Assembly (NCBI GenBank): GCA_019448385.1
Contig: JAGTXO010000044.1
Span: 124,001 to 188,000 of the forward strand
DNA: 64,000 nucleotides
Reading direction: 5' to 3'
Source of the DNA: Diacronema lutheri
Lineage: Eukaryota; Haptophyta; Pavlovophyceae; Pavlovales; Pavlovaceae
Shown here: piece after piece, positions 45,916-52,689 of the stretch
Layout of the letters: every line of letters starts with the position of its first letter
How positions within the stretch are numbered: position 1 is the stretch's first letter
Position numbers and translations under genes: made by a program
The notes under the pieces: model-generated
What the model saw: the letters and a program-made list of their open reading frames with translations, nothing else
What the model was told of the DNA's origin: nothing
Databases searched by the model: none

Positions 45916-45949
45916 TGTTTGAACCAACCATGTTTTTGGGTCTGGCTTA

Positions 45950-45971
45950 GGGCCAGTCTTGACCAAAGTAG
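45950..45971 (+). repeat. Left TIR of outer Harbinger-type element
   Basis: 22 bp, matches the reverse complement of 52568-52589 with a single A/G difference at the sixth base; preceded by TTA. Confidence 0.85.
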
Positions 45972-46024
45972 GATTTTGCAGAAGTAGGAAATGGGTTTTC
46001 TTTTTTCCTACTTTTTGGGCAGGA

Positions 46025-46034
46025 GTAGGTTTTT
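46025..46034. repeat. Left copy of direct repeat GTAGGTTTTT flanking the inner element
   Basis: GTAGGTTTTT at 46025-46034 recurs at 50984-50993. The copies bracket sequences ending in inverted CAGCGTTCTCC / GGAGAACGCTG (46036-46046 and about 50967-50977). They are the likely target duplication of the inner transposon; the exact TSD length (8-10 bp) is uncertain. Confidence 0.65.
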
Positions 46035-46202
46035 CCAGCGTTCTCCCTTCGCTGCGCTGGCGTCAGTGACGCGTCGCCTCGCAACGATGGCCGCGCGTGA
46101 CGATGTGACGTGACGTTCGTCACCGTCGCGGCATCGCGTGAGGGTGACGAGTGACGGTCGCGAAGATCGTCGCGACGATGAGCGCCGGCACACTTCCAAC
46201 AG

Positions 46203-46306
46203 CCATGTCGCCAGTAACCGCGAGCGCGCCGTAGGCGTCTTCCCGGGGAGACGCCTACGGCGACGCCCCCCCACTCGCGGCGGCTACTGGCGTCGCCCAC
46301 GACCAC
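46203..46306. repeat. Large imperfect foldback hairpin in the inner element
   Basis: A perfect 14-bp stem (46227-46240 with 46249-46262; loop TCCCGGGG) is nested in a longer imperfect palindrome: TCGCCAGTAACCGCGAG on the left against CTCGCGGCGGCTACTGGCG on the right. Confidence 0.75.
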
Positions 46307-46612
46307 GTCTCGAAGCTGCGCCATGAAGCCGCTCTTAACCTGCTCGCCTCGCTTGCTCGCAATTGCGCTGGGACGTTCGCGCGGCGCCAGGACGCGGAAA
46401 TCTTTTGCTCCGTGCTCGCCGGCGTGCCGCCGGCCGGGCGCGCAGCTCTGCGGTCTCGGTGCGTGCTCACCGTCGATATTGTCGTCGTGCTCAATGGCAT
46501 GGGCTTGGCGCCCCAGCTCGCGCAGACACCGTGCGAGCTTAAGTCGAACTCGTACTGCCCCACGCGCTACGACCAGTCGGACACGCGTCGCTGTCAGGCC
46601 GCTGAGAGCGGC
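46266..46612 (+). other. Open coding-like fragment inside the hAT-like element
   Basis: In the plus frame this reads as ordinary protein (VSKLRHEAALNLLASLARN, RRQDAEIFCSVLAGVPPAG, VLTVDIVVVLNGMG), with no ATG at its start and no recognised family. It may be an exon of a captured gene or of a second element-encoded protein. Its end overlaps the 3' end of the minus-strand gene at 46594. Confidence 0.3.
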
Positions 46613-47734
46613 GGGCGGCGGCCGTCGGCGGCAAACGGCGGCGCGAGGGCGCCCAGCTCGACGGGGTGCCCTACGAGCGTGCGCTGCAAGGTCGCCACCT
46701 GCCGCCAACCGCGCGCAACATTTGCGTCCGCGTCCAGCTCCGCCTTTGTGGGCACGTCGGCGGGCCGAGCGGCATTCGACTCGTCGGATGCACCTTCTGG
46801 CCCGAGCGCACGCGCGTCATGGCCGCGCGCGAGCGCGACGACCGCGTGCGTGATCGCGCCGCGCAGCCGCTCCGCCGCCTTCGCGTGCTCGCCGCGCTCG
46901 ACGAGACGGAGCGCAAGCGCAGCTTCGCCGCCACCGCCGCCGCCGCCGCCGGCCAGGCGTTCGTGCTGTTCGTCAACGGACGGAGCGTCGGCGGGGGCGT
47001 CGGGCGTCGCGGCCGCGCGCGCCACGTCGTCCGCCACGCACGGGCGCAGCGCCTCGCGCGCGGCGCACGCGGCGACGCTCGCGCTCACCGCGGCGCTGAC
47101 CGGCGCGCCGTCCATGCCGGCATCGTCGCCAGCACCTACGAGCTGGCGCGCGTGTACCGCGAGCGCCTGCAAGCGTTGCGTGCGCTCCGCGGCGAAGAGG
47201 GAGAGCAGGAGCTGCGCGGATGAGCGCGCTGCGGCGCCGAGCCCGCGTGCGCCATCCGCGCCGGCCGAGCCGAGCGCGCGCAGCGTGGCAGACGCGTCGC
47301 CGTCATTGGCCGCGCACGCGGCTGCGCGCAGCGCGGCGGCGGCGGGCAGCGCGGCGGCGGCTTCGGCGGCTGTCGAGATGGCCGGCGCGCCTGCGCCGTC
47401 CGCGCCGTCCGCCGCGAGCTCGGCGAGGGCTGCGAACCGCACGGCCGCGCCGTCGAGGTCGCCCGCGATAATCCGCGCGATCGCGCAGCGCGGCGCGCGG
47501 CGGCGGCGCGCTGGCCACGGAGGGGAAGCCTGCGTCGAGCGCTCCGGCGAGCGCGGCACGCGCGTCGGCGCACGTGCCAACGGGGGCGTCGGCGTCGAGC
47601 GCGCGCGCGGCGCGGCGCGCGACGTCGGCGGCGCGCGCGCAGCCGAGCGCGTCCGAGCGGCGCGCGGACTCTAAGCCGAGCGTCTCGGCACACGCCGTGC
47701 ACACCTCGGCGATGCGCGCGAGCTCGGTGCGCAT
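46594..47734 (-). pseudogene. Unknown helical-repeat gene, frameshifted, carried by the hAT-like element
   Basis: ATG 47734 starts MRTELARIAEVCTACAETLG and continues to GALDAGFPSVASAPPP; near 47490-47530 the coding-like frame shifts by one base to CAIARIIAGDLDGAAVRFAA and runs to a stop at 46594. The protein is Ala-rich, helical and TPR-like in places (ALALRLVERGEHAKAAERL). No intron with normal borders explains the shift, so it is either a pseudogene or contains a sequencing error. It is not transposase-like, suggesting a captured host gene fragment. Confidence 0.45.
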
Positions 47735-47774
47735 CGCCGACGCACCGTGCGCGCCGGGCGCGTCGGCTTGACAT

Positions 47775-48115
47775 GGAAGCCTGCGGCGTTGTGGACGGCG
47801 CTTGCCGCCGGCGCAGCGACGGCGGTCGGATCGCGGTGCGGGGTAGGTGCGTGGGGGTGTCCACCCCTACCGCGTCATGCCGCGTCCTTGCCGCTACAGT
47901 CGTCCCGGCGTGCACAGGGTTAGCGCTCTGCCTGCGGACGTGCGCTGCGCGCTCTCTGCCGCTCACTACGTTCGTTGCCCCGCGGCCAAGTTCCCGCCCA
48001 TCGCAGAAATGAAAGTGTCCTTAGCCACACTTACTTTAATGTGATTTGAGACGACGACGCATCCGACTGGACAGCGGGAACAGGAGCACGTGCGCGGAGC
48101 GAGGAGTCACCGAAT
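47775..48115. other. Non-coding spacer in the hAT-like element
   Basis: About 340 bp between the captured gene-like frame and the transposase stop. Nothing recognisable; AT content rises near 48000-48060. Confidence 0.4.
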
Positions 48116-50815
48116 CTAACTTATGACGATGCTCTTTCCGACCTCGGGGTAGGTGCGTCGCATGTAGCACATGAAGCGCTTGTTCATGCGTAGGATGACA
48201 AGCCTTTCGAGCTCCTCGTGGCCAAGGAGCGAGTTGCCGTCCGTCAGCACGGTGTTGGCGCACGACAGCATGCGCTCGCAGAAGCTCTCAGCCATGAGCG
48301 AGCCGACCTGGCCCCACGAGCGGCTCGCCATCAGCGGGATGTAGCCAAAGGTCGGATGCTTGTCGATGGTGCCGTTGTTGAGCAGGTTGCCGCGGTAGAA
48401 TCTGCCGAGCGGCAGGCCGACGAGATCGTCGACCACATCGGGGCGCCGCGAAATCTCGCAGCCGGGAAACTCGACGGCGAGGTTGATTTGCGTGCGCAGC
48501 CAGGCATCGACCTGCGTCGTCACCCGCTCGCGCAGCGCGTGCTCGAGCGCGGCGTGGTTGGTCTGCTCGTCGGACAGCTGCGCCTGCGCGAGCGGCGTCC
48601 AACTACTCTCGAGCGCATGCGGCGCGCCGCGCGTTGGCGTGAGCGGCACGCTCGCGGCTGCTGGGAAGGCAGCAGCTGCTGGAAGGGGCGCAGCAGCGGC
48701 AGCGGCCGCTTCCGCGTTAAACCTGTCGACCTGCTTCTCGAACTTGATCATCTCATTGATGAGGAGCGCGCGCGCAGCTTTTCGCTCGCTGACGGAGAAA
48801 TGACTGCAGCCCTTGGTGCGCACGTCCAGCACAGTGGCGAGCTGCTCGCGCGGCGTGATGGTGATCCGCGCGTCGGAGACTGGCTCCTCGATGTCCTTGC
48901 CGCAAAACCGGCGCTGAAATTCGACGAGTGCGCGCTTCAGGCACTCCTTGCCAAGCGGCGTCATGTCCGCGACGTCGCACATCTCGCGCGCGTGCTCAAC
49001 CGAAGAACCGGCAGACACCTTGTCCCTCTTGATGATCGCAACTGCGCGACGGGCGACAAAAGCGCACGCCAGGTGGTCAAGCCAGCACGCAAACACCCGG
49101 GGCGCAATCAGCGCGCGCGCACGCTGGTTGCTTTTCAGCGCTGCCTCGAGCTTGAGAAGCACGAGGGGGACGTACGGGCCCACAAACATCTTCTCCTTCT
49201 GCGCGAGCGTGGTCAGGTGCTTGGTCTGGTTGAGGATGGCCTCGAACTCGCGAGCAGTCTGCCACTGTACGTCAGTCAGCTGCGGGCACGTGTCCTTGAC
49301 CTGGTCAAACTGGCTCATGTGCGTCGCGAGCGGGCGCTCCATCCGCACGACTGACTTGAGGAGCATGTGCGTCGCGAGCGGGCGCTCCATCCGCACGACT
49401 GACTTGAGGAGCATGAGGCGTGAGGCGACTCGCGTCGTAGTGAGGTCGACCGCCAGCTTGATTTCGGGCGCCTAAAGGGATAGTAAGGGGCAATTGGTCG
49501 CAAATCAATTCACGCCGCACACGTCGCGTCGCGCGCGCGGCCTTTGCTGGGAGCGCGCCGCACCTTCAGTACGCGCGCCATGTCGTGGAGGACCGAGAGG
49601 CGGCTGCTGTAGCTGAACCACACGGCGAGCTTGTGGATCCGGTTGATGAGCACCTGCCCCTCCTTAAAGGGATTGACGACTCTGCCCTTCTTGGAGCGCA
49701 CGAGGTCGCCGATGGCCGACTTGCCAACCTTGTCGCCGTCGTGCATCAAGCACACGTTGCTGTCGAGGACATCGAGCTCGTTGCCAACTCCTGCAGCTGC
49801 TCGGTCGGACGTGACGACGCCAATGAGCTCGCTGAGCTCGATTCCGGCGAGCGCCTCGATGCGCGACTGCAGCGTGTCCGCGACGGTCACGTTGGTGTTG
49901 TCCCTGTCGTGCCGGACGAACACGATCGCGCATGTTGCTGTCGAAGTCGGGCGGGATGAACTGCAAGCCGGCCGCCTGATACTTGGCGTGGTTGGCGAGA
50001 GTGCCGCCGTCGTGGATGAGCTGCATGAACGGATTGCCCTTAGCCTCCTCGTGCATCTTCTTAATGAGGAAGATGAGGTACGCTTCGAAGCACGCGAACT
50101 CAGCGTTCACGTAGTCGGTGAGCTGCTTGGACGTGAGCAAGGCAGGTTTGTGCTCGTCGGTACTGAACAGCGAGAGCATCGTCTTATACTCCTCGGCGTC
50201 GAACGTGCGCTTCGAGATGAGCTGCGGCGTGTATATGTAGAATCGCGCCTGCCCCGCGAGCTGCTTGCGCGCGCGGTCCGCCGCAAAGTGCGCGTCAAGC
50301 TTTCCCTGGGAGCGCTTGCCTAGCGCGGTGAGGCTGGAGACAGCCGCGCCGTCCGCACGTGCGCCCGCGCTCCCGAGCGCCTCCATGTCCGACGCGAGCC
50401 TCGCTCTCTTGGCGTCAAAGCGCGCTGCGCCCGCCGCGCCCCCGTCCGTCGTGGCCGAGTGGAACTCACGCAGGTGCTGACCGGCGGCCGAGGTGACGAG
50501 GCGATTGTTCTTCTTGTCAATCGAGCAACGCAAGATTGTGTTGCACCTCTTGTCGAGCCCGACGACCACGTTGCAAATGCAATTGCCCACTTTGTGCCAC
50601 GACTTCGGCGCATCGTCGGCGAGCAGGTTGACGTCGTCCCAAACCTTGGATTTGACGCCCGGCGGCGGCGCATGGACGTAGAGCGATGGGACGGGTACAC
50701 CATTGCGCTCGGGCAGCGGCGCATCCGCCGCTGCCGCCGGCGCTGTCGCCGCCGCCGCCGTCGCCGCCGCCGCCGCTGCCGGCGCTGCGGCCCGCCCGAT
50801 GAGGTGAGCGCGCAT
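48116..50815 (-). pseudogene. hAT-like transposase with BED-type zinc finger, frameshifted
   Basis: Minus-strand reading from ATG 50815. The N-terminal part has a BED-finger-like pattern (WHKVGNCICNVVVGLDKRC, then AAGQHLREFH). The middle contains ANHAKYQAAGLQFIPPDFDSN, then a one-base frame change near 49925 into AIVFVRHDRDNTNVTVAD and ELDVLDSNVCLMHDGDKVGK. A 92-nt GT-AG intron (49472-49563, AAG|GTGCGG to TTTAG) joins MARVLK to APEIKLAVDLTTTRVASRL. The C-terminus (GHEELERLVILRMNKRF) resembles the hAT dimerisation region. A 48-bp tandem duplication adds 16 residues. The frame change makes the copy non-functional unless it is a sequencing error. Confidence 0.65.
49319..49414 (-). repeat. Perfect 48-bp in-frame tandem duplication in the transposase
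   Basis: 49319-49366 and 49367-49414 are identical; each encodes MLLKSVVRMERPLATH. The lack of any difference shows the duplication is recent. Confidence 0.92.
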
Positions 50816-50983
50816 CGTCGCTTTCGTCGCGACTTCGTCGCGACCGTCGCGCTGCAAGTGACGAAATCGTCGGCGTCGCCACCGTCACTGTCTCACGCTG
50901 TGACGGGCAGTCGCGACCGTCACTGGACGCGAGCAGCGAAGATCGTCGCGAAGATTTTAGTGACTGGAGAACGCTGCCGGTGG

Positions 50984-50993
50984 GTAGGTTTTT
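50984..50993. repeat. Right copy of direct repeat GTAGGTTTTT
   Basis: Second copy of the 10-bp repeat at 46025-46034; followed by the continuation of the Harbinger element. Confidence 0.65.
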
Positions 50994-51043
50994 TGTGCGC
51001 GCGGTGATGCTTGGGTTACATAGGGAGCGTGTTATGTCCCACG

Positions 51044-51900
51044 ATGCACGCCGAAGGCGCACGGCTCTATCGCGCACGGCGTAGGCGCGCCGCGATCTAC
51101 GCGGCATGTGCGCGGGTGATTCACTCCGCCGCGGCGGCCGCGCTGGTCTTTGTGACGGACAATGTGCCAACGACGCCCGCCGACCGAGCGAAACCACGCC
51201 CGCGCGACCGTTCGAAGGTGATGCGCGATATTGCACACGACCTCACGGACGCCGAGTTCAAGCGCTGCTATCGGATGGACAAGGCGACGTTTCAGCATCT
51301 CCTCGAGTGTATCCGCCCGCATGTCGCGGTCAGAGACAGTCGTCGTGGCGACGGGCTCGACTTGGACCTCATGCTTTCGATGGCTCTATCGTGGCTGCGA
51401 GGCGTGAGCGACTTGGACATCTGGCGACTGCACAGAGGGGTTTACGTCGTTCGCGACGGGAAACGTGGCGGCGGGGTGTGGCGTGGGCAGCGTTCGCGCA
51501 TCCCGTTGCGCGCTCAACTCTGCCTTGCCCGCATCGTGCGTTCTCGCACCATACGCAGGCCGTGCGCGCGCGGCGCGCCGCGCGCGCCTGCCGCGCGCAG
51601 TTCCACTTTCTATTACGTGCTTTGGGTCGTCATCGCCGCGCTCAACAAGGGCCTCGACCGCGAGATGGACTTCCCTTTCCGCGACCGAGCAGCGCTGGCC
51701 GATCTCGAGCGCAGGTTCGCGGAGCGCTGGGGGAAAGAGGCGCGGTTCTTGTACCGCGGCCTGCGACTTGAGCTTCTGCTGGAGCACTTTGATGCTGAGC
51801 AGCTCGTTCACGATCACCGCGATTGCATCCTGTTGCGACTTGAGGAAGCTGTCGACCGGGAAGTTGCCGTCCATTGGCGCGCCGCGCCGCGCCGCCGGAG
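51044..51900 (+). pseudogene. Truncated PIF/Harbinger-like transposase, N-terminal part
   Basis: ATG 51044. It resembles the N-terminal half of HARBI1-type nucleases: LTDAEFKRCYRMDKATFQHL, DLMLSMALSWLRGVSDLDIW, then after low-quality sequence STFYYVLWVVIAALNKGL and FPFRDRAALADLERRF. In intact proteins RLHRGV and STFYYVLW would be nearly adjacent, so an intron or insertion lies between about 51440 and 51600; its acceptor looks like GCGCGCAG, but I could not fix the donor in a matching phase. The DDE catalytic domain expected downstream is absent, so the gene is truncated. Confidence 0.6.
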
Positions 51901-52420
51901 TCGTCGACTGCGCCGCTTGGCGCGGTGAGCGGCGCAACGCGGGCGAAAGCGACCAGCGCTGCGGTGTGGAAGGGGTGCCCCGCTCGTCAGCAGCGCGCCC
52001 CTCGTCCGCATCGCCGGCCGCGTCGCTGCCGTCGCCCTCGTTGCCGCCGGCCCCGCCGGGCGGCCATTCGTAGGTCTCGCGAAAGCCGCCGGCAAACTCC
52101 TCCGCAAACCTCAGGCTGAAGAGATCGCTCTCGCCCGATCTGCCCTCAAGGATGCGATGGTATACGATCCACGGCAGCGTGTCGAGCAGCCCGACGATCA
52201 CGGACGCCGCGCGGACGCCGCGCGGCGGCCGCGCGGCGCCGCGTGCGGCGCCGCCGCGGCCCGTGCCGCGCCCGCGTCCACGCCCGCGCCCGCCGACAAG
52301 CGCGCCGTCGGCCGCGTCATCGCCAGCATCCGCGAAGACGCGACCATCCACAACTGGGATGGCCCGCGCCGCCTGAGCATCAGCTCCGTGCCCCTTTTCC
52401 GCCGACGCGCTTCCCCCCAA
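51860..52420 (-). other. Minus-strand ORF in the Harbinger element, possible second element protein
   Basis: An open frame without ATG start near 52420 encodes a Gly/Arg-rich patch, then VRAASVIVGLLDTLPWIVYH, FAEEFAGGFRETYEWPPGG, an acidic linker and FLKSQQDAIAVIVNELLSIK. It overlaps the tail of the plus-strand transposase frame on the opposite strand. Harbinger elements often carry a second (Myb-like) ORF; no Myb motif is visible here, so this is only a possibility. Confidence 0.3.
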
Positions 52421-52567
52421 GTTGTATTTATTCGGCAGGGTCCTCGGCCCGAGCTGCAGAATAGATTTTTGCAGCTCGGCCGCGAGGCCGGCGGAAAGTA
52501 GGATTTTTGGTCGCGTAACCGACGAAAATCCTATTTATTTTCCTACTTTGCCCAGGCCGCGTCTCAT

Positions 52568-52589
52568 CTACTTTGGTCAAGACCGGCCC
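52568..52589 (-). repeat. Right TIR of outer Harbinger-type element
   Basis: Inverse of 45950-45971 with one mismatch; followed by TTA at 52590-52592. Confidence 0.85.
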
Positions 52590-52689
52590 TTAGTGGCTTT
52601 TGCCATCTTTAAAAAGTTTTTTTCGCCTTTTCACTGTACTTCGTCGGCTGGAGCGGGCTTCCCGCCCAAAAACGCCGGAACGGGAAATC

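Follow-up and report, generated by a model that had tools for sequence, protein, structure and literature searches.

A hAT-like transposon nested in a Harbinger-type element of Diacronema lutheri, with an altered junction at its right end

A 64-kb stretch of the Diacronema lutheri genome (C70:124001-188000, the window, from an assembly of 43.49 Mb in 103 contigs) carries a 4.9-kb hAT-like transposon inside a 1.7-kb Harbinger-type element, indicating two separate cut-and-paste insertions. We hold both the nesting and the order of the two insertions with high confidence. Copies of the outer element elsewhere are named after the contigs on which they lie (C42, C88 and C48), and loci of the inner family are given L-numbers. 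The parts of the nest, in positions of the window, are the following.

45947 to 45949, no strand: left copy (TTA) of the outer target duplication; C42 likewise has TTA/TTA, and C88 has CTA/TTA.
45950 to 52589, plus strand: outer element, Harbinger-type, probably non-autonomous, with uninterrupted relatives at C42 and C88 and a 5' part at C48.
45950 to 45971, plus strand: outer left terminal inverted repeat (TIR), 22 bp, from its inverted match with the right TIR.
46036 to 50976, minus strand: inner hAT-like element, 4941 bp, with its transposase on the minus strand, delimited by ends and flanks and by comparison with near-full-length copies elsewhere.
46036 to 46046, plus strand: inner left TIR, CAGCGTTCTCC, from end alignment.
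50966 to 50976, minus strand: inner right TIR, from end alignment.
50976 to 50977, no strand: altered right inner junction, lacking an 8-bp duplication and with 16-17 bp of the outer element gone, from alignment with C42, C88 and C48.
52568 to 52589, minus strand: outer right TIR, 22 bp, from its inverted match with the left TIR.
52590 to 52592, no strand: right copy (TTA) of the outer target duplication, from flank comparison.

The 22-bp outer TIRs with one mismatch and TTA on both sides, first proposed in a sequence-only reading of the window, were confirmed at these positions. The best 22-mer inverted match between the end regions had 1 mismatch, against 6 for the best in 200 dinucleotide-Markov shuffles. 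With up to 3 mismatches allowed, this TIR had 7 matches across the 43.5-Mb assembly, distributed over four loci that all belong to the outer family, and the reversed-pattern control gave 0. The same reading had called for a whole-genome search for outer copies lacking the inner unit, and had considered the nest doubtful if uninterrupted 1.7-kb copies never occurred. Such copies were found, and the nest survived: C42 (1742 bp, TTA/TTA) and C88 (1746 bp, imperfect duplication CTA/TTA) are both complete without the inner unit, and C48, also without it, keeps the left end and passes into other sequence after about 1.0 kb. Only the window, one of the four outer loci, contains the inner unit, the subtraction of which leaves an outer element of 1699 bp. 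C42 and C88 show 4 differences in 1742 bases, the window copy shows 15 differences in 1695 aligned bases from each of them, and C48 differs by 4.3-5.0%, with its unrelated tail counted in. At that point the C48 copy gives way to sequence in which a GTTCATGAACGTTTGTTCAC-like unit is repeated, possibly a further insertion.

The order of events follows from the outer copies without the inner unit together with the stand-alone inner copies bearing 8-bp duplications of their own, and the clear insertion order claimed from the sequence alone was upheld in this way. It counts against this order that it was drawn from paralogous outer copies and not from an empty allele of the window locus. If the whole 6.6-kb unit were instead one composite element with co-evolved outer and inner ends, both sets of ends should be intact, as they are in the window. 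This possibility, to which we give practically no credence, was refuted by the separate copies of the two units, the outer one occurring alone at three loci, the inner one alone at many, and the combination at the window locus only.

A genome search with 46030-50990 gave at least 104 matches, among which were at least 12 further copies of nearly full length, incomplete copies, and members of a subfamily that is more distant, at about 80-95% identity. The inverted ends CAGCGTTCTCC / GGAGAACGCTG recur in the copies aligned, so that the inverted ends noted for an inner unit at 46035-50983 proved real; the limits given for it were wrong, the ends of copies elsewhere corresponding to 46036 and 50976. 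The window copy differs by 0.20-0.30% substitutions from L029-L035 and by 0.8-1.5% from L037-L040. Perfect 8-bp duplications, at unrelated sites, flank 15 of the 18 two-ended loci examined: L029, L030, L032, L033, L036, L037, L038, L039, L040, L044, C89:210-215k, C30:377-382k, C78:346-351k and the short derivative C40:1.0-1.6k (14 in all), plus the split copy L041/L043. The 14 tallied duplications are 75% AT, compared with 29% AT in the window. The three exceptions are the window copy, L031, and L034 with L035, counted once for their identical flanks. Outside the 18 are loci with one end seen (L042, L045, L046, L068, L069, L070, L073 and L074) or with no clear end (L065 and L071), and further partial copies.

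Several of these loci have peculiarities of their own. L041 and L043 (C40:120404-123296 and C40:154348-156345) are apparent halves of one inner copy, about 31 kb apart with GACTTTTT at both outer ends, and seem to reflect a much larger insertion into a sibling of the inner family. L034 (C78:27169-32118) and L035 (C77:105202-110151) share the same flanks and show 0 substitutions, with about a dozen small indels in L035, and are probably an assembly duplicate. At C22:109468-127196, inner-family fragments and DDE_Tnp_4 matches are arranged in mirror image, which suggests a large inverted duplication.

The right junction of the inner element in the window departs from the family pattern. At the insertion site the sequence is GTAGGTTTTTC-TGTCTTCACCCCCGGTG-CGGTGGGTAGGTTTTTT in C42, C88 and C48, and GTAGGTTTTTC-inner element-C-CGGTGGGTAGGTTTTTT in the window. 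Removal of the inner unit therefore does reconnect the outer element, as had been stated, but minus 16-17 bp. The sequence-only reading had attributed the direct repeat GTAGGTTTTT, at 46025-46034 and 50984-50993, to the inner insertion. The repeat is present, yet the three relatives contain both of its copies, with the 16-17 bp lost in the window between them. Its presence in outer copies that lack the inner unit shows GTAGGTTTTT to belong to the outer element, and it was rejected as the inner target duplication; the window inner copy has none. Both copies contain the motif GTAGGWWW, which was defined after it had been noticed and which occurs 7 times in the window, always in the terminal parts of the outer element, with 0 occurrences in the remaining 57,360 bases. 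It may be a transposase-binding repeat.

45968 to 46034: four subterminal GTAGGWWW motifs, at 45968, 45984, 46004 (minus strand) and 46025, the last being the left GTAGGTTTTT.
50984 to 50993, plus strand: fifth motif, the right GTAGGTTTTT, also carried by C42, C88 and C48.
52498 to 52546: sixth and seventh motifs, at the right end, at 52498 and 52539 (minus strand).

The other two exceptions, like the window, have a single altered junction each. At L034, TTAATACC-GTATTAA precedes the left end and TTAATACC follows the right one, and the additional 7 bp are the inverted complement of the target bases next to them (a chance of about 1 in 16,000 for a specified 7-mer at equal base odds). L031 has a changed right end with a short filler. 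The following course of events best explains the window. A small, probably non-autonomous Harbinger-type element entered a TTA site between two host genes. The hAT-like element entered the AT-rich left subterminal region of this element, possibly before or possibly after its arrival at the present site, and most likely at GGTTTTTC. This left-side sequence is the likelier original target, since the targets of the family are AT-rich with nearly always clean 8-bp duplications. The insertion may at first have been flanked by an ordinary 8-bp duplication. Its right copy and the 16-17 bp beyond would then have been removed when an excision was aborted at that end, through cutting, hairpin opening or flank trimming and re-joining to the same transposon end. 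We give about even odds to a normal duplication followed by aborted excision. The single altered junction in all three exceptions and the palindromic insert of L034 fit such an event. These junctions resemble the 'open-and-shut' joints of V(D)J systems, as well as aborted hAT excision, in that a single end seems to have been joined back onto its own flank, with bases lost or with palindromic bases, and the other is untouched, an analogy for the junctions alone, which are known here from sequence. Hairpins on the flanking DNA are described for hAT excision (PMC2803484), and hairpin-capped breaks for the hAT-derived Kat1 (PMC4763223).

Several points weigh against aborted excision. Three loci are few, the L034 insert might have a different origin, and hairpin formation by the inner transposase is a supposition made by analogy; no empty alleles of the L034 and L031 sites were found in the assembly, the original targets there being inferred. 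A search of the available literature for insertions without duplication or for hairpin scars led nowhere. The main rival is an insertion in a single step, with deletion of 16-17 bp of target and no duplication, which would produce the same junction from one event. This would be unusual for a family with perfect duplications at 15 of 18 loci, and the other two exceptions retain a recognisable part of the duplication; we consider it a possible but rather doubtful origin. Recombination between two inner copies inserted nearby in the outer element, so that the remaining copy bordered the flank of the first on its left and that of the second on its right, would explain both the missing duplication and the lost target bases. 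It is improbable, as the two insertion sites would have to lie within about 20-30 bp of each other, with the second of them in the GC-rich CCGGTGGG, in a family with duplications as AT-rich as those tallied above. An assembly error behind the junction or the nest is more improbable still. Near-identical inner copies (0.2-0.3% substitutions among the youngest) permit mis-joins, and L034 and L035, with shared flanks and small indels, look like an assembly duplicate. Against this, the genome is described as a PacBio assembly of theoretical coverage x368 with Illumina polishing (PMC8379373), and the outer copy in the window has differences of its own (15 in 1695 from C42) as well as a unique 31-bp gap.

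The assignment of the inner element to the hAT group concerns its ends, its duplications and its transposase. Its predicted coding parts are listed below, with dN/dS for the ratio of nonsynonymous to synonymous substitution rates.

49564 to 50815, minus strand: inner transposase exon 1, with a predicted start codon and an exon join backed by P0004 and P0008.
48116 to 49471, minus strand: inner transposase exon 2, from the reading frame and the exon join.
49316 to 49411, plus strand: 48-bp tandem duplication in exon 2, present in the youngest subgroup and absent from L037-L040, L046 and L047.
46597 to 47670, minus strand: second open frame, ORFb, perhaps a second gene, with the lowest dN/dS of six frames between subfamilies.

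In the window copy, a 5-bp deletion near 49930 disrupts exon 1; none of the other rows aligned shares it. When read across the intron, the transposase extends for 854-870 amino acids to the usual stop in 6 of the 13 copies examined (L029-L032, L039 and L040, the L040 frame with a 24-bp insert near its end). Shortened frames were found in L028 (the window copy, 383 amino acids), L033, L034, L035 and L037, and L038 and L044 were not readable. In public data 8 relatives were detected at E <=0.01, including P0004, an MMETSP transcript-derived protein, the sequence of which joins both exons as predicted; P0008 agrees on the exon join. P0008 (KFE25_008121, probably on contig C5) is an annotated D. 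lutheri protein that starts as inner transposase around the exon join and continues as other sequence, perhaps a gene or gene model that took up part of an inner element. More distant relatives of the transposase are located at L075 (C5:96500-99700), the gene of which holds a long array of short repeats, and at L076 (C49:202300-205100).

Short TIRs of the CAG...CTG type are the hAT consensus. The inner element resembles hAT transposons (Ac, hobo, Hermes, and hAT/Ace and hAT/Shanks of Tisochrysis lutea) in its 8-bp duplications, short TIRs and one transposase gene, and differs from them in its intron and perhaps in a second gene. hAT families are active in a related alga, with 12-bp ends and 8-bp duplications in one described case, and one Tisochrysis hAT family matches PF04937 and PF05699 (PMC10138859). 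In contrast, no member of the inner transposase family scanned matched any Pfam model, and the family is not among the 4 PF05699 matches of the genome. An NCBIfam scan and a PDB sequence search with the transposase led nowhere, and its profile matched no single hAT protein. AlphaFold2 models of the homologue P0010 and of window exon 2, with mean predicted local distance difference test (pLDDT) values of 44 and 47, were too poor for a fold search. A profile of the C-terminal region, picked by eye, matched the four PF05699-positive D. lutheri proteins with P 5.4e-4 and a score of 26.3, compared with 11.2 for the reversed profile and at most 22.1 for 60 column shuffles, in the register of the ER..S motif. 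Since the region was picked by eye and the single-protein comparisons were negative, the label is kept at 'hAT-like', mainly on the ends and the 8-bp duplication, plus this modest profile match. The hAT label had earlier been based on the transposase, which fits no Pfam model, and it now stands on the ends and the duplication.

ORFb is longer in L037, L039 and L040. Its dN/dS was 0.37-0.56 against L046 and L047 and 0.58-0.64 against L040, each time the lowest of the six frames. Against L046 and L047, however, values of 0.41-0.60 were obtained for the mirror antisense frame, and dN/dS by itself is therefore not enough to fix the strand. For the exons of the transposase, each read in its own frame, the ratio was 0.35-0.53 against L040 and 0.72-1.02 against L046/L047. 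In a protein search with about 8,000 candidates scored, the only ORFb match was D. lutheri's own, with none outside this genome.

The outer element has two coding features.

51197 to 51437, plus strand: remnant of a Harbinger-type transposase gene (N-terminal part), 71% DNA identity to C89:486845-487063.
51386 to 52420, minus strand: convergent open frame, also open at C42 and C88 with 98% identity, and without a Pfam match.

TIRs starting GGGCC are typical of PIF/Harbinger elements, and those of the outer element begin in this way. It further resembles this group in its 3-bp TTA duplication and in the remnant, which has 69-71% DNA identity to a decayed locus on C89; about 470 bp beyond the region resembling the remnant, that locus has a DDE_Tnp_4 match scoring 26.7 bits against a cut-off of 24.8. 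The outer element differs in having no recognisable DDE domain, four copies only and an imperfect duplication (CTA/TTA) in one of three tested. No frame of the outer element matched a Pfam family, and no PF13359 match was detected at the window locus. A Myb-like accessory protein is a trait of many PIF/Harbinger members; the convergent frame matched no Pfam family, and its single match among about 8,000 candidates scored in a protein search came from D. lutheri itself. Having no DDE_Tnp_4 transposase, the outer element can be only a non-autonomous relative, and is probably a Harbinger derivative with a convergent frame. The PIF/Harbinger label given from the sequence alone fits the TTA duplication but not a DDE domain of its own. 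At 51432-51433, at an apparent splice donor, the window copy lacks 31 bp that are present in C42, C88 and C48, and two frames are thereby joined.

The nest lies between two predicted host genes.

Predicted start about 45915, minus strand: left flanking gene, PAP/fibrillin-like, from reading frames and the first ATG.
Predicted start about 52690, plus strand: right flanking gene, aldehyde dehydrogenase, from reading frames and the first ATG.

Since these starts lie on either side, the nest likely occupies what would otherwise be a head-to-head spacer of about 130 bp. The main text of the D. lutheri genome paper names long terminal repeat (LTR) and long interspersed nuclear element (LINE) repeats and has no word starting 'transpos' (PMC8379373).

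The nest is real and mostly ordinary; of mild interest are the divergence of the inner transposase and the scars at the junctions. A wider picture, which we think possible but less probable than not, is that D. lutheri and environmental data contain a divergent hAT-like clade missed by current domain libraries, with a second gene under purifying selection. In this picture the copies would bear scars of excisions that were aborted, namely a palindromic insert derived from a hairpin, a filler and the deletion of a flank, with the transposon end re-joined to its own flank. The locus is a clean case of nesting, with outer copies free of the inner unit still present elsewhere in the genome. It also gives a caution that a direct repeat beside an insert is not necessarily a target duplication; the one seen here is a subterminal repeat that the host transposon already had. 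The inner transposase would escape Pfam-based annotation. With its full-length frames and a protein match derived from a transcript, the inner family is a candidate for an active transposon in an alga used in aquaculture.

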